IMG/VR virus record: IMGVR_UViG_3300036830_000283
Coordinates: 1-32,949 of that record
Length of the DNA: 32,949 bases
From: a virus
Reading direction: 5' to 3' (one strand)
Shown: piece by piece, positions 8,727-21,426 of the stretch
Numbering within the stretch: position 1 is the first letter of the stretch
Layout of the letters: the number at the start of each line of letters is the position of its first letter
Translations under genes and position numbers: made by a program
The notes under the pieces: generated by a model
Databases searched by the model: none
The model's input: only the letters and a program-made list of their open reading frames with translations
Told to the model about the DNA's origin: nothing

Positions 8727-8882
8727 TCAACCGGCGTCCTCGTCGTCGGTTGAACGGGCGACCGCCAACATCCACAAGCTGGTCACCGCGTAGAAGCCGG
8801 CGAACCACGAACCCACCAGCAACGCCGGCAAACCGAACGCGATCACCCCTAGGGCGAGCAGCTGCCGCTGTCCTTCGCTCAC
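8727..8882 (-). CDS. 51-residue two-span membrane peptide
   Basis: GTG at 8882 overlaps the portal stop (GTGA). Two hydrophobic segments, LLALGVIAFGLPALLVG and FAGFYAVTSLWMLAVA, end with an acidic tail. Not recognised; a membrane accessory of the head-assembly block. Confidence 0.6.
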   Translation of the reverse strand: MSEGQRQLLALGVIAFGLPALLVGSWFAGFYAVTSLWMLAVARSTDDEDAG

Positions 8883-11872
8883 ATCGCCACCCCCAACTCG
8901 AACAGGGCCTGCACAGCCTCGAAGTCCCCGCCGCGACCCAACTCGTTCGCCGCTTGGGCGATCTCGTCGGGGTGCGCGGCGAACTCGAAGTCCCGCCACT
9001 TCCCCGACGCGGCGCGTTTCTGCGCGAACGCCATAAACGCCCGCTGCTCCCGGGCCGCCGTCCCGGCCGACTTCTCAGTGTCGGGAGTGTCGGGCACCTG
9101 CTCATCGCGGTCCGCCGGCACAGCGGCAGCGGGTTTGTTCGCCCGCGGCTGATTTTGCGCGGCGGACGGCAGGTTCCCCGGCATCCCGGTCGGCTGGACG
9201 TCCACGTTCAACCACGCCGGCCCCGTCGGTGTGACAAGCAGCGGCTGATCGGCCTCGGGGAACCCGTAGCGGGGCAGATTCAACCGATCCCGACCCTCGT
9301 TCAGGGTTTGCAGACCGGCACCCACATACCCCTTGAGCAGCGTCGCGTCTTTCTGCTCGTCGGTGTCGTCCAGGCCGATGAACGAGAACGTCACCTCCGG
9401 TGGCATCCCCAAATAGTCGCGGGACACCTGATTGATGAGGTCCACTATCCACTGCGCGGTCGGTTTCGTACCCCGCTCCAACTGGGCGTCCGATTCGCCC
9501 TGCATGTGACCCTGGCCGCCCATACCGCCCATACCGTGGTTCGGGGTGAACCCGATGTTCGTGGGCAACACACCAAACGACGCGCAGATCAACCGGATGA
9601 TGTGCAAATCCAAATCCGAGTTGAACTTGGCGTCGAAGTTCTGCGGATACGACGGTTCGAACCCGGCCGGGAGGAACCTGGCCCGGTGCCGCTGATCGGT
9701 CTGCCCCGACAGGTCATCGTTGAACACAGCTTCGTACTCGCGTAGCTGCTCCGGGGTCATCGTCGCATCCACCCGCACCACCATCTCCGGGGTGACACCG
9801 GCGGAAAACTCCGACCGCAACCAATCCCAGCGTTTCAACCACAAATCGATGTTGGCGAGGGCCTGCTCCACACACGAATTGCCACACCACGCCGTACGCC
9901 CATTACGCCGCACGTACACGACGCCGTTGGGCACGGAGACACAGTGGACACTGCCCTCGTACCGTTCAACAGTGGGCACGGGCACCTTGTGGTAGTCCCC
10001 CGGACGGTCGGACACCCGGTACTGCGTACGCCGAGCCTTAGTCTTGCCGTTCGGCTCAATCCGGTAGATCCAACCCTCTCGGCCAGCTTTCTGGAGCACC
10101 TCCAGCAGGTCGTCGGCGAGGTACGGGCTCGTTGTCAGGTAGCGGCGATACCCGTTCTTCTCGGTGTGACCGTCGCCGATCATCATCCAGTCGAACAGCA
10201 AGTTCAGCAGCCGAGGCGTCCAGCCCTTCGCCTCGCTCGGGATGCGCTTCTCCCACGACCGCCGCACACCGGCGGCGTAGCAGTTGTCCCGCAGCCACTC
10301 AGCCAGAGGCCCGTGATTCACATAGAAGTAACCGCAGTGGTTAGAGGCGGTCGTGTAGCGCCAGTTCAGACCCGTGTCGGCCAACATCGCGCGGATCTGC
10401 TCGTAATCCGTCGCCCTCTCCGATTGCGAGATGCAGATCGTGTTGCGTCCGGCGGCCGTGCAGCCCTCGGCGAGGTACAGCCCCAAAAACGCGACCCACA
10501 CATCTTGTTCGATCTTCAAGGCAGGTGCGGGATGGTGGCGACCTCGGCGACGATCAGCCGGCTCTAGACAGAACTGGCCAGGCTCGGCCCCACCAGACCA
10601 GTGCGACTTGCCGGGAATGAGGTGGGATCTGGCGCGACCCACCGGGCCGTCGACGAACCACCGGGCCTCGCGGATGACTTCCTCGGTCGGGTTGACCTGT
10701 GGGCGCGCCTTAACCACCATGCGGTGATTCGGGGTAACCAACAGGTCGTACACCTGACTACTGAAGCGAACCATGTCGCCCTCGTAGGGCTGATTCACGT
10801 AGGCAGTCGGCTTCTGCCATTCGAACTCGCCGGAAGCTGAACGAGTCGCAATCAGTTCAGTGCCATTGAGGTCCGCGAAAAACTTCCAGCCCTGATCCGT
10901 GAGGATCTCAGTCTGGGAGTCGTAGCAAAATCCGTACGGCGAGTTCGAACGCCGGTTACGCACCTTGTAGATCAACGTGTCCGTGTTCGCCTCATCACCC
11001 GACGCCGGCCGGTACACCGCCGACGTGAACTCGGCGTCCACCTGATCCGGTGGCGACTGCGAATACTCGCCACGAGGGAACCCAGACAAAATTTGCTGGA
11101 ACGCACAGTAAGGCGCCTGAGGGGTGGCCCCGCGATAATCCAGCAGCGGCTTGATCGAGGTGGAATCGATAAGTTCCAGCGAGTGCAGGTCGCCACCCAT
11201 CGCCAGGTGCGGGTACAACGACACCGCATCCAGGACCAGAAAGTCCTCCAACAGTGCACCCAGCCACTCACTGAACGACCAGTTGTTGATGCGGTCCGGC
11301 TTCTCCCACCAGGCCGTCAACCGTTCCAGGTCGTCGGCGTAGCGGTCCTGCAAGTCGGCGGCGACCGCGAAGTTCGCCTTCCCCTCACGTTTCGCCAGGT
11401 GCCGAACCCGGGACGACTCGATCCCGAACGACCACTCCAAACCGGTCAGGTTCGCTTTGCGGGTTTCGATACAGGCCCGCATCACCGACACCTGATCGGC
11501 GGAGTCCCGCAACACCGACCACGGCACCAGCCGATTCCCGGTCGTTTGGAGGTTCCACGAGGTCGGGTAGTCCCAGCGGCGCGGCGCCGGTCGACCCGAG
11601 GACAACAACGGGTCGATCGCGGCCGGGTCGAGGGGGTCACCCGGTCCGAACGTCACGTTGTTGAACGGGTCCCGCGATAGCGACGTCGAACCCGATGCCC
11701 GGGATGCTGGGCGCCGCTGCAACGCCTGGAGATACCCAGCCGACGCCGGAGTGACCCGAGTACCAGCCGGCAGGGCCGGCATCGCTTTCGCCAGCTCCTC
11801 ACGCACCACCGCACGCAACTCATCCGCCGAGGAAGACGACACCGGAATCCTGGAACGGCGACGACGCGACAT
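8879..11872 (-). CDS. Portal protein interrupted by an intein
   Basis: 997 residues before splicing, about 647 after removal of residues 316-665. The extein has the actinophage portal pattern: RRWDYPTSWNLQTTGNRLVPW, MRACIETRKANLTGLEWSF, WSFSEWLGALLEDFLVLDA, then SPYGF joined to SCVEQALANIDLWLKRWDW, NFDAKFNSDLDLHIIRLICASFGVLP and GESDAQLERGTKPTAQWIVDLINQVSRDYLG. It forms the dodecameric ring through which DNA enters and leaves the head. The C-terminal tail (about 880-997) is Pro/Ala-rich, then helical. ATG at 11872 lies 2 bp after the ATPase paralogue stop. Without protein splicing the portal crown region would be disrupted. Confidence 0.9.
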   Translation of the reverse strand: MSRRRRSRIPVSSSSADELRAVVREELAKAMPALPAGTRVTPASAGYLQALQRRPASRASGSTSLSRDPFNNVTFGPGDPLDPAAIDPLLSSGRPAPRRWDYPTSWNLQTTGNRLVPWSVLRDSADQVSVMRACIETRKANLTGLEWSFGIESSRVRHLAKREGKANFAVAADLQDRYADDLERLTAWWEKPDRINNWSFSEWLGALLEDFLVLDAVSLYPHLAMGGDLHSLELIDSTSIKPLLDYRGATPQAPYCAFQQILSGFPRGEYSQSPPDQVDAEFTSAVYRPASGDEANTDTLIYKVRNRRSNSPYGFCYDSQTEILTDQGWKFFADLNGTELIATRSASGEFEWQKPTAYVNQPYEGDMVRFSSQVYDLLVTPNHRMVVKARPQVNPTEEVIREARWFVDGPVGRARSHLIPGKSHWSGGAEPGQFCLEPADRRRGRHHPAPALKIEQDVWVAFLGLYLAEGCTAAGRNTICISQSERATDYEQIRAMLADTGLNWRYTTASNHCGYFYVNHGPLAEWLRDNCYAAGVRRSWEKRIPSEAKGWTPRLLNLLFDWMMIGDGHTEKNGYRRYLTTSPYLADDLLEVLQKAGREGWIYRIEPNGKTKARRTQYRVSDRPGDYHKVPVPTVERYEGSVHCVSVPNGVVYVRRNGRTAWCGNSCVEQALANIDLWLKRWDWLRSEFSAGVTPEMVVRVDATMTPEQLREYEAVFNDDLSGQTDQRHRARFLPAGFEPSYPQNFDAKFNSDLDLHIIRLICASFGVLPTNIGFTPNHGMGGMGGQGHMQGESDAQLERGTKPTAQWIVDLINQVSRDYLGMPPEVTFSFIGLDDTDEQKDATLLKGYVGAGLQTLNEGRDRLNLPRYGFPEADQPLLVTPTGPAWLNVDVQPTGMPGNLPSAAQNQPRANKPAAAVPADRDEQVPDTPDTEKSAGTAAREQRAFMAFAQKRAASGKWRDFEFAAHPDEIAQAANELGRGGDFEAVQALFELGVAM
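9878..10927 (-). other. Class 1 intein with LAGLIDADG endonuclease, in the portal
   Basis: 350 residues. N-terminal splice block CYDSQTEILTDQGWKFF (Cys1), block B LLVTPNHRMVV with the TxxH motif, two LAGLIDADG-type helices (VAFLGLYLAEGC and LLFDWMMIGDGH), and the C-terminal block HCVSVPNGVVYVRRNGR ending AWCGN before Ser+1. The splice joins SPYGF to SCVEQ, restoring a normal portal motif. The penultimate residue is Gly instead of the usual His, a rarer variant that can slow Asn cyclisation. Confidence 0.88.
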
Positions 11873-11874
11873 GC

Positions 11875-12585
11875 TCAGCCCACCGCCCCTACTCCATCGT
11901 CATCGTCGAAAAGAACACCGTCCAGCTCTTGCGCACCGAGCCGGGAACCGCCGTAAAGCTCCCGCAACCTCACCAGTGTTTGTGGACTCAAATTGGGGGC
12001 GTTATCCCACGTCGACCCGGTGCGGAACACCACTGAACCGTCATCGACACGGGCCAGTTTCCGCAGCAACCGGATCGGACGTGGTGTGGTAGCCACGAAC
12101 ACCTGACCCGACTCGCCCACAGCGTCACCGAGAATGCGCCACACCTCATCGACGCGAACCATCGCCGCCAACTCGTCCACCCACGCACCCGCCAACCGCG
12201 CATTGCGCAGCCGATCCGGGCGATCCGCCGAGTAACCGCGGATCACCGACCCATTAGCGAGTTTGATCCGCAGGTCACTGATCTCGAACGAGGTCAACTC
12301 GTCAGGATGGAACACACGCAACAACCCCGAGTGGCCCTCGAAACACACCTGCCGGCACGTCGTCCAGGTAGGGGCCACTACCGCCCACTGTGTGTTCGGC
12401 TGGGAAACAGCCTGCTCGGCGAGCCACTCAGCCGCCGCGCGGGTCTTACCCCAACCTCTACCCGCACACGCGACGAAAGTCCGCCAATCCGTGTCCGGGG
12501 GAAGCTGCTCGGAACGAGCCTGCGCATGCCAAAGTCGACGCACCACGCGCCACACCCACTCACTGATAAGATCGGACGAACACAT
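11875..12585 (-). CDS. ATPase-only terminase large-subunit paralogue
   Basis: 236 residues if the ATG at 12585 is used, the first one outside the tRNA on the other strand. It has WHAQARSEQ, Walker A AGRGWGKT (41-48), VVAPTWTTCRQVCFEG, GYSADRPDRLRNARLAGAWVDE with Walker B (132-138), the coupling motif TTPRP and STWDNAPNLS, all aligned with the full terminase encoded 3-5 kb away (roughly half of positions look identical). It then ends in an acidic tail (FDDDDGVGAVG) where the full-length protein continues into the RNase H-like nuclease. ATPase motifs are intact, so it is not obviously decayed. It may assist packaging or replace the motor part; alternatively it is a duplicated remnant. It precedes the portal gene by 2 bp. 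Confidence 0.75.
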   Translation of the reverse strand: MCSSDLISEWVWRVVRRLWHAQARSEQLPPDTDWRTFVACAGRGWGKTRAAAEWLAEQAVSQPNTQWAVVAPTWTTCRQVCFEGHSGLLRVFHPDELTSFEISDLRIKLANGSVIRGYSADRPDRLRNARLAGAWVDELAAMVRVDEVWRILGDAVGESGQVFVATTPRPIRLLRKLARVDDGSVVFRTGSTWDNAPNLSPQTLVRLRELYGGSRLGAQELDGVLFDDDDGVGAVG

Positions 12586-12660
<75 letters not shown>

Positions 12661-12665
12661 CCCAT

Positions 12666-14597
12666 TCACGGGGTTGCGTAGAACCCTTTTTGGTTAGCCT
12701 CAGCGGCTTGCCGGTCTGAGGTGCCCAGCACCGACGTCCAAAACACCGCCTCGGAGAACGTCATCGGCAACGGGGCCAATGACCCGGAGCGGACGACACC
12801 GCCGATGGCAAAGCGATCTCTCGTCGGCTCACCGGTGCCGCGGGTATAGGCGACCGAGGCCAAGTCGACCGCGCCGTCCAACCATTGCGCCATCGCGGTA
12901 CCGGAGTCGGTCGCGGACATCTGGTGGATGGCGCCGTTGAACGTGGACAAGTTGCCCTGGTAGGTGAGGGTGCTATCCACCGGGGACAGCACCGGACGGG
13001 CCCGGGAATGACCACCGGAGTTGTTGTTGTCCGGCTCGCTCAATCCGTACTGGTAGACGGTGTTGGTGGACACCGACTCGGCCCACCAGCGCAGCTGCAC
13101 GGTCGGGGTGGCGGCGGACAGGACCGCGCACATCGACGCCGCGCCGGCCGCCTGCAAGTTCGCCGCCGACTGGAACACGACGTCGTCAACGCCATCGAAC
13201 GTCACCGCAGGCTTCCCACCGGATGTGAGCACCGCACCGGCGGACACCAACTTGGGTTGCGCGGTGGTAGTCGCCTGAGTCAAATTCCGGGTGTTGCCCG
13301 ACTGGTCGTACCAGGTGTCGATGAAACCGTCACCGGAACCGCAGAAGGTGAGCAGGCTGGCCGTGTCCAGGGCGCCGGAGACGAACCCGATGTCCTGGGT
13401 GGTGGAATCCGATGAGCGACGAACCTTCACCGCGCTACCGGCGTAGGTGGGCACAACGAGCCGCAGCGAGTAGGCCCGGGCGGTGACGATGGTCTGCCCG
13501 AGCCCGTTGTTCACCCCACCCGGAGTGGCGGACGCGATCGCGGACACCGTTCCCGGGCCGCCGGTGGACACCGCGATCACCCGGAAGTCGTAGGAAGTGC
13601 CGGTGGTCAACCCCGACACGGCCACGGTTGGGGCGGTGGTGGTGGCGATCGACACGAACGTCGACCCGGCGGTGGTCTTCTGCTGAACGTTGTACGCCCC
13701 GGCGCCCGCCGTCGCCGTCCAGGTCAGTGTCAATCCGGTGGTGGTGACGTTGCTGGCGGCCAAACCGGTCACCTGCCCCGGCACGGCCGGCGGGGTGGGA
13801 TCGGCGGCTCCGGTCAGGACACGCTGGTAGGCGTCGAACATGCTCCGGCCGAGGATGCGCTGGCCGGGCGCCGAGTAGTGGTTCCCGTCGCCGATGTTGT
13901 TGCCGTACACCCCCGGCGCGACCCGAACCCGAGTGTTCCGTGACGGGGTGCCCAGATGCACGGAGTTGATCGCCGCCCGGGTGCCGGTCGACAGATATTC
14001 CGGCACCATCTGACCGAGCACGAACGGCAAGTCCGGCACACCCAGATCGGCGCGCGCCCCGGCGATCAACGCATCCAGATCGGTCTGATAGGCGGCGCCG
14101 GAGGTTCCGTTGTCCCCGTCGGTTTCGCCCTGCACCCACAAGATCGCGGTGTACCGGGCGTTCGCCCCGGCCGCCGCCAGCGCCGCCTGCGCCTGCGCCA
14201 CCGCCTGCGCGTACAGGTTCCCCGCCACACCACGCCGCCAGGCCAGAGTCACGTTCGACGACAGCGGCACCCCGCCGTGCGCCGACGGGACCAACAACAC
14301 CCGACGGTTCACCGGGACCGACTGCAAATACCAGCGGGCGAACACGCTCCCAGGGCCGATCCCGGACGGAGTGTCATGCATTGCGAGGGGTTCCACCGCC
14401 TGGGAGAGCACCCCGGCGTAGGTGCCGGACGCCCCGTACTGCGCGACGCGGGGATCGGACGGGTCGTAGCGCGTCGTGTCATAGGGGACACCCCGCCCAG
14501 ACATGTTGCTCTGACCCCACAACAGGATCAGGTCATACCCGACATCGGTAGTCTTCAACGCCGCCGACGACACAGACGTGACACCCAACCGAGGCAC
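12666..14597 (-). CDS. SGNH esterase / FN3 / arabinofuranosidase-like fibre protein
   Basis: 643 residues, GTG at 14597 three bases after the upstream stop. The N-terminal domain (about 20-262) is a sialate O-acetylesterase/CE6-like SGNH hydrolase: LILLWGQSNMSGRG with Ser30, LWVQGETDG at about 154-161, and GDGNHYSAPGQR with Asp237 and His240. A fibronectin type III domain follows (about 271-357), then an ArabFuran-type lectin-like domain (about 370-643: YSLRLVVPTYAGSAVKVRRS, FIDTWYDQSGNTRNL, KPAVTFDGVDD). This layout fits a tail fibre or depolymerase that deacetylates cell-envelope polysaccharide, possibly arabinogalactan or capsule. It is unusual to find it between terminase and portal genes. 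Confidence 0.8.
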   Translation of the reverse strand: MPRLGVTSVSSAALKTTDVGYDLILLWGQSNMSGRGVPYDTTRYDPSDPRVAQYGASGTYAGVLSQAVEPLAMHDTPSGIGPGSVFARWYLQSVPVNRRVLLVPSAHGGVPLSSNVTLAWRRGVAGNLYAQAVAQAQAALAAAGANARYTAILWVQGETDGDNGTSGAAYQTDLDALIAGARADLGVPDLPFVLGQMVPEYLSTGTRAAINSVHLGTPSRNTRVRVAPGVYGNNIGDGNHYSAPGQRILGRSMFDAYQRVLTGAADPTPPAVPGQVTGLAASNVTTTGLTLTWTATAGAGAYNVQQKTTAGSTFVSIATTTAPTVAVSGLTTGTSYDFRVIAVSTGGPGTVSAIASATPGGVNNGLGQTIVTARAYSLRLVVPTYAGSAVKVRRSSDSTTQDIGFVSGALDTASLLTFCGSGDGFIDTWYDQSGNTRNLTQATTTAQPKLVSAGAVLTSGGKPAVTFDGVDDVVFQSAANLQAAGAASMCAVLSAATPTVQLRWWAESVSTNTVYQYGLSEPDNNNSGGHSRARPVLSPVDSTLTYQGNLSTFNGAIHQMSATDSGTAMAQWLDGAVDLASVAYTRGTGEPTRDRFAIGGVVRSGSLAPLPMTFSEAVFWTSVLGTSDRQAAEANQKGFYATP

Positions 14598-14600
14598 GAC

Positions 14601-14870
14601 TCACACCCCCGACTGGAGGTAATGCACAATTTGGCTCCCCGACGCGACAACGCCATACAGCGTCTCGTCATCGTCCAAATCGGCCCCGAACGTCGCCCCC
14701 GACGGCAACGACAACCCCGTCGACACCGTCACCGACGCATTACCCACCACAACCTCAACCGGGCCCGGGTTGTACACCATCACCGAAAACCCCGGATAAC
14801 GCTCACCGGGGAAACCGGTCAGTGGCGTCGCGGTGGTCCCCACAGTCGGCCTGGACGTGAAAATAGCCAC
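14601..14870 (-). CDS. Small beta-rich decoration- or fibre-like protein
   Basis: 89 residues, GTG start. VMVYNPGPVEVVVGNASVT, GLSLPSGATFGADLDDDETLYGV and IVHYLQSGV form repeated beta strands of a type often seen in head-decoration or head-fibre proteins of actinophages. It probably acts outside the head or on the fibre encoded next. No catalytic motif. Confidence 0.6.
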   Translation of the reverse strand: MAIFTSRPTVGTTATPLTGFPGERYPGFSVMVYNPGPVEVVVGNASVTVSTGLSLPSGATFGADLDDDETLYGVVASGSQIVHYLQSGV

Positions 14871-15110: not shown

Positions 15111-17434
15111 GCCGCGGCGGCCAGGGAGTGGCCGCAGATGCGGCAGTGAGTTGCTCGGCGGCTATTCGGCAAGTCGCAACTCGGGCACATCTTCGAGATC
15201 GACGACAGAAACACCATCGCCGACCCACCCATTTGGAGTTCGGTCGCCGCCCACACACAGTTGTGCACCAACACTCCGGCCGCAACAAACTCGTGCTGGT
15301 CGGCGACCATCAAGTCGTAGACGTCACGCCGCACGGGCTCGACGTAGCACCCACGCACACTTACCGCCGCACGACTCGGGATTCGGTCGGTACTTGGACT
15401 GCCAAAACTGGGTACCGCACACCGGGCACGGAACCCGTCGCTGATAGCGGCGGGACTGATCGTTGACGCGGTTGATGCACGTCCGGGAACAGTACCGAGA
15501 CCGCCCGGCGACACTGACCGGGCTGCGATATTCCTTCCGGCAGCACTCACAGACGCGGGTGACGTACTCCCGACCTTCCCAGGTGCGTTTACCGTGTGCG
15601 CGATGCCAGGCGCGTCCTTCCGGACTGGCATGCCATGCGACTGACAGAGGACGGATCCGTCCGGCGTGGGCACGCAGCGCATCGCGCTGCTCATCGGTGT
15701 ACTCGTCGGCGTGCCGGAGTTGATGCGCGGACGGCGAGAGTAGGACAAGGTTCGCGGGTTCGTTGTTGAACGGGTCGTGATCGACGTGATGGATGTGCCA
15801 GCCAGCGGGTATTTCCCGTCCCGGGTGCGCGTGCTGTTTCCCACCAGGGTTGCGTTTGTACACGACACCGTGGAATTCGACAGATACGGGGTGTTCGACC
15901 ACCCGTCCAAGATATCGCCACACACCAAAGCATCCAACCTGGCCCAACCATTCCCAGTCCAGATCCGGTGATCAGGTGTACCGGTCAGCGCACGACCATC
16001 AGACAACTCAACGGTCATCACCTCGGCGTCGCGCCGAGTCCGTCCAGAACGCACCACCGGTTTCCAACCAACCCGCGTCCACACGAACTCGCCCACAGCC
16101 ACCGATTCGATCGGGACCTCACCCCGCGCGGTCAGGACCGGCGTTTCTCCAACGAAACAGGCATCCAAGTTGTCCGGCGACTCCGTCGAATCCTGAGTAA
16201 ACGAACACATCTGATCCTCAAGGTTCGCCATCACCCCCACAAGATGCGCACGGCCCTGCTCCCACAACGCGGCGATCGGCTCCGCGCGGATCGTCTTACC
16301 CCGCGTCGCCCGCACCGACTTATACGCAACATTCGCATCGACCGTGCGCAGCACATGTTCGATGTAGTCACCACCGTTGTTGACCTCACCGACAATCCGG
16401 TCGGCATGCCACCGGTGATAGGCGGTCACCGCACGGGTCATACACGCGTGCGGGGAACCCTTCATCGTCGCGTCCTCCAGGACATACAGATGCCCCTCAC
16501 GATCACGACCCACCACCACAATCCCGGTGGAGTCGGCCTTCTCCCCCGACGTCACCGCCGGATCCACACCCACCACGATCCGCACCATCTCCGGCGCCTG
16601 ATCCAGGCGGTCAACACGAGAATCATCCAACTGATCCCGAGACCACAGCGCACCCTCGATGTCAGTGAGAAGTTCCCCCTCCAACTCCTGACGCCCAAGG
16701 CGGGTGTTCTCGTACCGGATCCGCAGATTCTCCAAAGCAGTCCGCGACAGATTCTTCGCGTTATCCCACGTCGAACCACGGATCACCCGGACAGAACCAT
16801 CGTCACGAGCGAGAAGCTCCCGCAAAATCTTGATCGGCCGCGGCGTCGTCGTCACCACCACCTGCGGGTTGTCACCGATACGCAGCGCCGGCATGAGGCT
16901 CTCACCCCACAAATCGTCGGCATGCACCATCGACGCAATCTCATCCAACCAAGCCCCGGACAAGTTCGCGCCACGAAGCCGATCCGGACGGTCAGCGCTG
17001 TAGCCGTAAATCTTCGAACCGTTCGACAACCGCACCGTCAAGTCCGACGCGTTCGACGACTCCAACTCGCCCGGCAACAAAGCCCTCAACACCCCAGAAG
17101 GGCCCTCCAAGCACACCTTCCGACAATCCCGCCACGTCGGAGCAATAACAGCCCACTCCGTACCCGGATTCGTCGCAGCCTGCTCCGCCAACCAATTCGA
17201 CCCCGTCGCCGACTTCCCCCACCCACGACCAGCCAAATACAGATGCACCTGGAAGCCGGCATCAACCGGAACCCGCTGCTCCTCCCGCGCCGACTCATGC
17301 CACGGACGCGGACGAGGCGGAGCCACTTTCGCAATCCTGCGCTGCAACTCAATCTGCTGAAGACGCAACCGCCGCAGCATCTCCAACTTCTCCAGAGACG
17401 CCCCCACCTCGTCCACACGATCCTTATCGCGCAC
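15107..17434 (-). CDS. Terminase large subunit (TerL) interrupted by an intein
   Basis: 775 residues, about 475 after removal of residues 426-725. Walker A AGRGWGKS (68-75), Walker B GAWLDE (160-165), coupling motif TTTPRP (195-200), nuclease Asp in VGVDPAV (291), GEVNNGGDYIEHVL, and the closing nuclease motif PDNLDA joined to CVWAATEL after splicing. It is the motor that pumps DNA into the head and cuts it. The C-terminus carries a small zinc ribbon (CPSCDLPNSRRATHCRICG). GTG start at 17434 with GGGGGTG upstream. The intein sits inside the metal-binding nuclease motif, so unspliced protein would lack nuclease activity. The small subunit-like gene is far away (20.9 kb). Confidence 0.92.
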   Translation of the reverse strand: MRDKDRVDEVGASLEKLEMLRRLRLQQIELQRRIAKVAPPRPRPWHESAREEQRVPVDAGFQVHLYLAGRGWGKSATGSNWLAEQAATNPGTEWAVIAPTWRDCRKVCLEGPSGVLRALLPGELESSNASDLTVRLSNGSKIYGYSADRPDRLRGANLSGAWLDEIASMVHADDLWGESLMPALRIGDNPQVVVTTTPRPIKILRELLARDDGSVRVIRGSTWDNAKNLSRTALENLRIRYENTRLGRQELEGELLTDIEGALWSRDQLDDSRVDRLDQAPEMVRIVVGVDPAVTSGEKADSTGIVVVGRDREGHLYVLEDATMKGSPHACMTRAVTAYHRWHADRIVGEVNNGGDYIEHVLRTVDANVAYKSVRATRGKTIRAEPIAALWEQGRAHLVGVMANLEDQMCSFTQDSTESPDNLDACFVGETPVLTARGEVPIESVAVGEFVWTRVGWKPVVRSGRTRRDAEVMTVELSDGRALTGTPDHRIWTGNGWARLDALVCGDILDGWSNTPYLSNSTVSCTNATLVGNSTRTRDGKYPLAGTSITSITTRSTTNPRTLSYSRRPRINSGTPTSTPMSSAMRCVPTPDGSVLCQSHGMPVRKDAPGIAHTVNAPGKVGSTSPASVSAAGRNIAARSVSPGGLGTVPGRASTASTISPAAISDGFRARCAVPSFGSPSTDRIPSRAAVSVRGCYVEPVRRDVYDLMVADQHEFVAAGVLVHNCVWAATELQMGGSAMVFLSSISKMCPSCDLPNSRRATHCRICGHSLAAAA
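15260..16159 (-). other. Intein in TerL with splice blocks intact
   Basis: 300 residues. Start CFVGETPVLTARGEVPIESV (Cys1), block B GTPDHRIWT with TxxH, GWARLDALVCGDIL, then a Ser/Thr/Pro/Arg-rich stretch of roughly 170 residues without any known domain, then block F DVYDLMVADQHEFVAAGVL and the ending VHN before Cys+1. All splicing residues are present. The middle low-complexity stretch is the wrong-frame reading of the HNH gene nested here. The reading frame stays open throughout. Confidence 0.88.
15324..15902 (-). CDS. HNH homing endonuclease nested out of frame in the TerL intein
   Basis: About 192 residues from a GTG at 15902 (GTG 15923 and TTG 15947 are alternatives; none has a strong ribosome site). 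The HNH core is IPAGWHIHHVDHDPFNNEPANLVLL in two adjoining parts: GWHIHHVDHDPFNN, then EPANLVLLSPSAHQ. Two zinc-finger-like clusters follow, CECC plus YCSRTC, and CPVCG plus ESCGGKC, and the protein stops 11 residues later. The frame is -1 relative to TerL. Its stop falls just before the C-terminal splice block of the intein. The complete HNH and zinc residues argue for a functional nuclease. Confidence 0.8.
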   Translation of the reverse strand: MVEHPVSVEFHGVVYKRNPGGKQHAHPGREIPAGWHIHHVDHDPFNNEPANLVLLSPSAHQLRHADEYTDEQRDALRAHAGRIRPLSVAWHASPEGRAWHRAHGKRTWEGREYVTRVCECCRKEYRSPVSVAGRSRYCSRTCINRVNDQSRRYQRRVPCPVCGTQFWQSKYRPNPESCGGKCAWVLRRARAA

Positions 17435-17929: not shown

Positions 17930-18111
17930 CACCACGCACCCGGAATCGACAACCAACCCACATCCAACGGTGGATCCACCAAACACCCATGCCCCGCCGG
18001 ATCCACCAACCACACACTCTTCAAACCGTCATCAGCGCACTCATACGAAATGTCCACCGGCAACGTCAACGACACACCACAACCCGGACACACCACAACC
18101 AAAGAAGCCAT
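17929..18111 (-). CDS. 60-residue zinc-ribbon-like protein
   Basis: ATG at 18111 overlaps the stop of the ClpC-like gene (TGATG). Starts MASLVVVCPGCGVSLTLPVD with a Cys pair, later ECADDG and HGCLVD. Probably a one-zinc fold. Role unknown; as part of the ClpC-domain operon it may be an adaptor or regulator partner. Confidence 0.6.
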   Translation of the reverse strand: MASLVVVCPGCGVSLTLPVDISYECADDGLKSVWLVDPAGHGCLVDPPLDVGWLSIPGAW

Positions 18112-18731
18112 CAGCGGCGATACCTCACCGTCAACACCTCAGTCACCTCACCCGACGAATGCTCCGTCGTCACCCGCGCAAAATCAGACACCGGCAAACC
18201 AGCAGCCACCCGCCGGCCCAAATCACCAATCAACCCGTGCAAATTCGCATTCGGAACCGTCGCCGACACCACCGGCACATCCGACACCACGTGCGGCTTC
18301 CTACCGATCAACTCGAACACCCGCACACGAACATCGCCCGAATCAACATCCAGCTTCGTCAACAACTGACACGCCACACCCCCACCCTCACGAAGCACCC
18401 CCAACAAAAGATGCTCCGTACCGATGTAGCTATGCCCCAACTGAAGAGCCTCACGCAACGCCAACTCCAAAACCTTCTTACCGCGCGGCGTATACGGAAT
18501 ATGACCCGGCGGCGGCTGGGAGCCCCTACCCACAAGCTCAACCAGCAGCTGGCGCACCGCATCGCCGGAAACACCCAGCGCATCCAGAACCTGAGCGGCG
18601 ATCCCCTCCCCCTCGTGAATCAAACCTAGGAGCAGGTGTTCCGTGCCGATGTAGTTGTGATCGAGGCCCCGCGCCTCCTCCTGCGCGAGGACAACCACCC
18701 GGCGAGCACGATCAGTGAAACGCTCAAACAT
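18111..18731 (-). CDS. Stand-alone ClpC N-terminal domain protein
   Basis: 206 residues from the ATG at 18731; the frame is open 17 codons further, but MFERFTDRAR is the canonical ClpC start. Two Clp_N repeats are plain: MFERFTDRARRVVVLAQEEA, NYIGTEHLLLGLIHEGEG (about 1-65), then HIPYTPRGKKVLELALREAL, YIGTEHLLLGVLREGGG (about 75-135). The similarity to actinobacterial ClpC1 is very high. No ATPase module follows; residues about 140-206 are a different domain. ClpC N-domains receive substrates and adaptors, so this protein could compete for or redirect the host ClpC-ClpP protease. The known cellular analogue is mycobacterial ClpC2. It is the first gene leftward of the GATC array; no ribosome site is obvious. 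Confidence 0.88.
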   Translation of the reverse strand: MFERFTDRARRVVVLAQEEARGLDHNYIGTEHLLLGLIHEGEGIAAQVLDALGVSGDAVRQLLVELVGRGSQPPPGHIPYTPRGKKVLELALREALQLGHSYIGTEHLLLGVLREGGGVACQLLTKLDVDSGDVRVRVFELIGRKPHVVSDVPVVSATVPNANLHGLIGDLGRRVAAGLPVSDFARVTTEHSSGEVTEVLTVRYRR

Positions 18732-20859: not shown

Positions 20860-21426
20860 TTATGAGACGTGCTCGGGTAGCTCCACACCGGCGGCCGTGG
20901 CTTCCGCGGTCATCTGGTCGCGCAGCTCCTGAATCGCGCGGTCGACCGTGGAGTCAGACAGGTGAGTGACCTCTTGGCGGATCGGCGCATCCATACCGAG
21001 TAGCTTCGCGCGGCGCTCCGAGAGCTTGTTCCATACCTCGGCGGCGCGTGCGTTGCCCTTCTGGATCTCAGGCCAGAGCGCGTTACCTGCCTCTTCTAGG
21101 CGGTCCGCTTCTAGGTCACGGAGCGCCGCCACGTCATCACGTGGGTAGGCGCGGAGGAACGCGACGAACCGGTCATGAGCGTGACCCCGGCTGGCGTAGC
21201 CCAGCTTGGCAACGATGGTGTCCCAATCACATTGGGCACGTCGCATCTTGACGCATTCGTAGTCACGTTCCCACCGCTCGATTGCCTCGGGCGTGGTCGC
21301 CTGCATCGTGGGTTTGACGGGGCGTCGCGCGCGCGCACGCGAGTTCGCTGCGGTGGTTCGCGTGTTCTGTCCTTCCCCCGTCTTTCCGTTGGGGGTGTCA
21401 CCACCCGGTTTGGTGCCGTTGTCCAT
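20860..21426 (-). CDS. Terminase small-subunit-like protein
   Basis: 188 residues, ATG at 21426 behind GGAGAGGG. The N-terminal 50 residues are low-complexity and basic; then RWERDYECVKMRRAQCDWDT, IVAKLGYASRGHAHDRFVAF (helix-turn-helix), ALRDLEADRLEEAGNALWPE, IQKGNARAAEVWNKLSERRA and KLLGMDAP. This order of HTH, paired helices and RAKLLGMDAP is that of small terminases, which bind the packaging site and form a ring. It is divorced from the large subunit and faces the rightward genes. A rival reading is another HTH DNA-binding phage protein. Confidence 0.7.
   Translation of the reverse strand: MDNGTKPGGDTPNGKTGEGQNTRTTAANSRARARRPVKPTMQATTPEAIERWERDYECVKMRRAQCDWDTIVAKLGYASRGHAHDRFVAFLRAYPRDDVAALRDLEADRLEEAGNALWPEIQKGNARAAEVWNKLSERRAKLLGMDAPIRQEVTHLSDSTVDRAIQELRDQMTAEATAAGVELPEHVS

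Follow-up and report, generated by a model that had tools for sequence, protein, structure and literature searches.

Models of the phage DNA-packaging motor assume a ring of large terminase (TerL) subunits that are all alike, each made up of a motor half and a nuclease half. The number of nucleases that is needed, and the uniformity with which the ATPases fire, are usually probed with artificial mixtures of mutant subunits. For D6E TerL, a kcat of 7.8 per min rose to 457.7 per min, about 59-fold, once the nuclease was removed, and the ATPase domain on its own assembles into pentamers (PMC5727402). R139 of the P74-26 enzyme was biochemically confirmed as a trans arginine finger (PMC5727402). 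T4 motors that are hetero-pentamers of unlike subunits still package DNA (PMC8589836). In Parabacteroides phage phiPDS1, TerL is split over two genes (PMC10773633), and the literature also describes split TerLs, TerL homologs arranged in tandem in Xanthomonas jumbo phages and a two-part TerL in a Staphylococcus prophage. No description of an ATPase-only gene that coexists with a complete TerL was found in the open-access literature searched.

Such a pair is present in the DNA analysed here (the window), an entire virus record of IMG/VR, 32,949 bases long, from an uncultivated phage, with a G+C content of 65% and end repeats absent. Two TerL-type genes were found in the record, and no third copy. 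The genes concerned are as follows.

8879..11872, minus strand: portal protein, intein-bearing, the next gene downstream of the ATPase-only gene
11875..12585, minus strand: ATPase-only TerL paralog, 236 aa from the ATG at 12585; the frame is open to a TTG at 12630
12585..12664, plus strand: tRNA-Met (Rfam tRNA, 69.6 bits), abutting the ATPase-only gene at its start
12666..14597, minus strand: SASA esterase/fn3 gene, between the full TerL and the ATPase-only gene
14601..14870, minus strand: small ORF of the same insert, with a homolog downstream of MuF in L050
15107..17434, minus strand: full TerL, ATPase and RNase H-like nuclease (Terminase_6N, Terminase_6C and intein domains)
about 15260-16159, minus strand: TerL intein of ~300 aa, in the nuclease domain
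20860..21306, minus strand: candidate terminase small subunit, assigned by position; relatives have its ortholog upstream of TerL

The order on the minus strand is thus full TerL, small ORF, SASA esterase/fn3 gene, ATPase-only gene and portal, with the plus-strand tRNA-Met in front of the ATPase-only gene. Because this tRNA gene abuts a minus-strand gene, transcription toward the portal passes antisense through it at 12585-12664. No homolog of the SASA esterase/fn3 gene was found among the fetched relatives. The portal intein shows a LAGLIDADG match, and the TerL intein has splicing domains only. It should be mentioned that a Clp N-terminal-domain protein without ATPase modules recurs in the group (window 18111-18731, L049 2969-4021, L037 19400-19999); in L049 its gene lies inside the TerL-portal interval.

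The frame at 11875-12585 shows the codon signal of a coding sequence. Its product matches Pfam Terminase_6N with an E value of 1.1e-13 (residues 56-245 of the TTG-start form; 51.8 bits, above the curated cut-off of 22) and PHROG 2 TerL, and nothing further. No match to the nuclease domain, Terminase_6C, was found in the protein, and the sequence stops at the domain boundary. The AlphaFold2 model (pLDDT 82) has its best PDB matches in the large terminases of P74-26, T4, D6E, Sf6 and HK97, with TM scores of 0.63-0.74. By this domain content and the model, the gene encodes a stand-alone TerL ATPase domain, with core and lid complete and the nuclease missing, as the preliminary description had proposed. 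A complete large terminase was rejected on the missing Terminase_6C, and a split TerL, in which two genes make one enzyme, on the completeness of the other copy in the record. The identity with the ATPase half of the full TerL is only 54% over 222 aa; therefore, an assembly duplicate is unlikely as the source of the second copy.

The catalytic motifs, numbered in the ATG-start form, are located as follows; the Q motif (Q27) is also kept.

12442..12462, minus strand: Walker A, GRGWGKT, residues 42-48; kept, and invariant across full TerLs of the family
12205..12207, minus strand: R127, aligned to the P74-26 trans arginine finger R139; the residue after it is changed from G to N
12172..12189, minus strand: Walker B and catalytic glutamate, GAWVDE, residues 133-138 (VDE 136-138)
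12082..12093, minus strand: coupling motif ATTP, residues 165-168; TTTP in full TerLs
11878..11913, minus strand: C-terminus; there is no homology past the ATPase/nuclease boundary, and the last codons enter the pre-portal stretch

R139 is the residue mutated in PDB 4znj (title R139A), and R127 aligns at this position. The two Walker motifs had been described as intact, and this is the case, the Walker B glutamate included. The coupling motif, also described as intact, is present but altered: its first T, in the VTTTP of the resident TerL, is replaced by A. The LRxG loop before this motif does not vary among the 22 full TerLs that were compared. In both ATPase-only copies known in the group (11878-12585; L037:9494-10192), its R is replaced by A and further residues are lost; the loop could be a nuclease-interface feature.

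The expected parallel with the full TerL up to the start of the nuclease was observed, since homology ends at the ATPase/nuclease boundary; in TerL, the nuclease domain (ALW) starts where it stops. The acidic tail is real only in part. The C-terminus is FDDDDGVGAVG, but TerL homology extends through DDDDG, opposite TDIEG of TerL, and the codons after it overlap the portal leader; the portal ATG is 2 nt past the stop.

These features would fit a nuclease-free TerL paralog retained as an accessory packaging ATPase at the portal, the most likely reading, to which we give about even weight. The protein would fold as an active ATPase. Via the trans arginine and the ring interface, it might join TerL subunits, or form rings alone, at the portal. 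The DNA engagement or translocation of the motor would then be altered while no cutting site is added. An intein-free backup motor, also suggested at first, is contradicted by the structure of the two genes: the intein lies in the nuclease half of TerL and the copy has no nuclease, so that the copy cannot replace TerL. The sequence is compatible with both of the other roles suggested, a subunit of a hetero-oligomeric motor and a regulator of TerL. The gene does abut the portal, which had been taken to fit a packaging role. This adjacency is weak evidence, however, because the TerL-portal interval is variable and the ATPase-only gene of a related record, G008, lies 29 kb away. The packaging role itself still fits the retained residues, the G008 copy and the recurrence of such genes in unrelated phages.

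IMG/VR searches with the portal and TerL gave some 20 records from this phage group. The relatives have a single full TerL upstream of the portal. The interval between the two ranges from an overlap to 1.8 kb and contains tRNAs, a Clp_N gene or other short genes, so that the insert of the window occupies a variable spot. The ATPase-only copy was found in 2 of the 21 group records, the window and G008; the records are contigs and may be incomplete. In the G008 record (120 kb), the ATPase-only frame is intact, encodes 233 aa and stands 29 kb from its own terL. It ends four residues past QLEG, at the same QLxG point as the window copy, and T replaces the arginine-finger R. A tRNA-Met is located ~700 bp before this gene. 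Whole-record searches of G013, G014, G019, G026 and G033 (98-122 kb contigs) found no second ATPase-type frame, and the TerL-portal gaps of the relatives contained no remnants of an ATPase copy. A scan of bacterial genomes with a five-row alignment found no prophage relatives.

In a tree of 53 rows, which included full TerLs and ATPase-only proteins, both ATPase-only proteins (window and G008) nest in the TerL clade of the group, apart from the TerLs of their own phages. When the window copy and the resident TerL were forced together, the tree was 20 log units worse (AU p 0.0099; 0.0476 without the G008 copy). This phylogeny, which had been proposed as a check, led to rejection of a recent tandem duplication of the resident terL. 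Therefore, the window copy predates the TerL of this lineage or derives from a related phage. It is closer to TerLs of other phages in the group (59% identity with that of L040) than to the resident one (about 55%). With the G008 copy, which may or may not share its origin, it groups as sister at 96/88 or 93/87, but this is a meeting of two long branches, and dropping one moves the other.

The main alternative, which we regard as possible, if on balance doubtful, is that the gene is a relic. A deletion reaching into the portal leader would have removed the nuclease half of a portal-side terL once a second, complete terL was established upstream, and the ATPase half would now be slowly decaying, surviving by chance or by translational coupling with the portal. 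The position is as expected for this history: the copy sits where the full TerL meets the portal in L020, L052, L055 and L111, and the portal leader supplies its last codons. The sporadic presence, with absence from the long records, also agrees with decay. The G008 copy, however, is a second intact one away from the portal, for which translational coupling cannot account.

The rate of evolution bears on both readings. The ATPase-only branch is ~4 times longer than the TerL branches, and six residues that are invariant in the 22 full TerLs have been lost, including R155 of the LRxG loop and the G following the arginine finger. On the other hand, 29 of 35 such invariants (83%) are kept, whereas neutral drift to equal identity kept 54% on average and 77% at most (2000 simulations); the figure for variable sites is also 54%. 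The residues of the ATP site are all kept; the chance that six random losses would all spare the 11 catalytic positions is 0.08. The frame contains no stop codon, against 3.9 expected, and only 1.6% of simulations were stop-free. The indels in the gene are in-frame only. A codon branch model gave omega of 0.06 on the ATPase-only branch against 0.03 in the background and rejected omega=1 (LRT 21.6), with synonymous distances saturated, branch lengths at the bound, and all selection figures spanning the entire branch, pre-truncation time included. Selection on the gene, as estimated from these codon data, is thus relaxed relative to TerL, yet present when averaged over the branch. Relaxed selection or frameshifts in relatives had been named as signs of a decaying duplicate; the first was seen in this limited form, and no frameshifted copies were found in the relatives, most of which do not have the gene. 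A constrained history as a full TerL, followed since truncation by a neutral phase that changed ~17% of the residues, would yield the same figures and explain the six lost invariants, with a stop-free chance of 13-21%. For this reason, function of the gene is favoured only, and partial recent decay after truncation is possible.

It is very unlikely that the protein is an interference factor, that is, a TerL ATPase domain from a related phage which enters the rings of competing phages or of satellites and acts as a dominant-negative poison of their packaging. The greater similarity to another TerL of the group and the rejected resident origin are in line with this idea, as is the location within a variable interval of accessory genes; moreover, inactive subunits slow T4 motors and reportedly stop lambda motors (PMC8589836). 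Such a factor would have to spare the resident TerL, though, and poisoning does not need the catalytic residues that are kept here. Avs3 binds TerL, and its complex (PDB 8dgc) is among the structure matches. We found no evidence for an anti-Avs decoy, and nothing specific to this idea in the open-access literature.

TerL inteins occur in the group at three sites, namely the GK of Walker A, a position ahead of the aspartate of Walker B, and LDA/C in the nuclease domain (survey of the TerLs of L021, L122, L104, L111, L020 and the window). Least probable of all is that aberrant intein homing or gene conversion at terL left an intein-bearing full terL and a truncated resident copy, which would explain origin only and not function: the two records with an ATPase-only gene are the only two of 21 with an LDA/C-site intein (a post hoc chance of 1 in 210), and the Microbacterium phages with such genes also have intein-bearing TerLs, but the sample is tiny, the TerL of Caulobacter phage GB2A has no intein, the truncation is ~160 aa before the intein site, the G008 copy is 29 kb from terL, and the TerL intein of the window showed no homing-endonuclease domain.

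If the gene is an accessory packaging ATPase, a natural ATPase-only partner would allow the nuclease number and the uniformity of firing to be tested. Such genes arose in at least three phage lineages, ending at one common domain boundary. A wider proposal, rather unlikely in our estimation, is that tailed phages underwent several independent splits in which an ATPase-only subunit works with full TerL in a mixed motor having fewer nuclease than ATPase sites, with the window, G008, Caulobacter and Microbacterium genes as examples. If the gene is instead a relic, it still serves as a warning that second copies can find their way into TerL counts and into taxonomy based on TerL.

In GenBank, ATPase-only TerL paralogs are held under plain terminase names in Caulobacter and Microbacterium phages. 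These are cultured phages, so that testing does not depend on the uncultivated one. In Caulobacter phages GB2A, RLK, KcrB and RW, an ATPase-only gene of 222 aa (GB2A gp096c) accompanies the full TerL, as in the window. The copies share the QLxG end, and the P-loop and the LRG arginine are kept. They differ in that they adjoin the small terminase and not the portal, and in that Walker B is altered (LCEER). Unlike the window copy, the GB2A copy is sister to the TerL of its own phages (96/94), which indicates an independent duplication. The GB2A gene (L013:2445-3113) crosses the inner end of the terminal repeat, and a truncated copy is therefore present at the other genome end.

The Microbacterium genes, Cece gp64, Zooman gp65 and A3Wally gp80, are annotated "Terminase, large subunit (ATPase domain)". 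As in the window, the paralog is upstream of the portal, an intein-bearing full TerL is further upstream, and the end is at the same boundary. In these phages and their relatives, one to three ATPase-type paralogs are found just upstream of the portal, and the whole-domain ones terminate within about 4-13 residues of QLxG. However, they are about 31% identical and form an independent lineage; a small ORF separates the paralog from the portal, and a second, more degenerate paralog stands alongside. In an A3Wally pair, one paralog shows 11 synonymous changes against 1 nonsynonymous change (dN/dS 0.027) and another shows 6 and 0. Judging from such counts, one Microbacterium ATPase-only paralog is under strong purifying selection. 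Three genes annotated "terminase, large subunit (nuclease domain)" (L015:889-1467, L016:12160-12792, L123:4324-4908) have a P-loop-like motif; they seem to be degenerate ATPase paralogs, and the annotation would be wrong.

The P74-26 ATPase domain (PDB 4zni/4znj/4znk) shares the fold, the P-loop, Walker B and the R139 position with the window protein, to which it is about 21% identical, but it is an engineered cut from a full TerL. The split TerL of phiPDS1 (PMC10773633) likewise has the ATPase part as its own gene. There, the two halves make one TerL, whereas the window phage has a complete TerL in addition.
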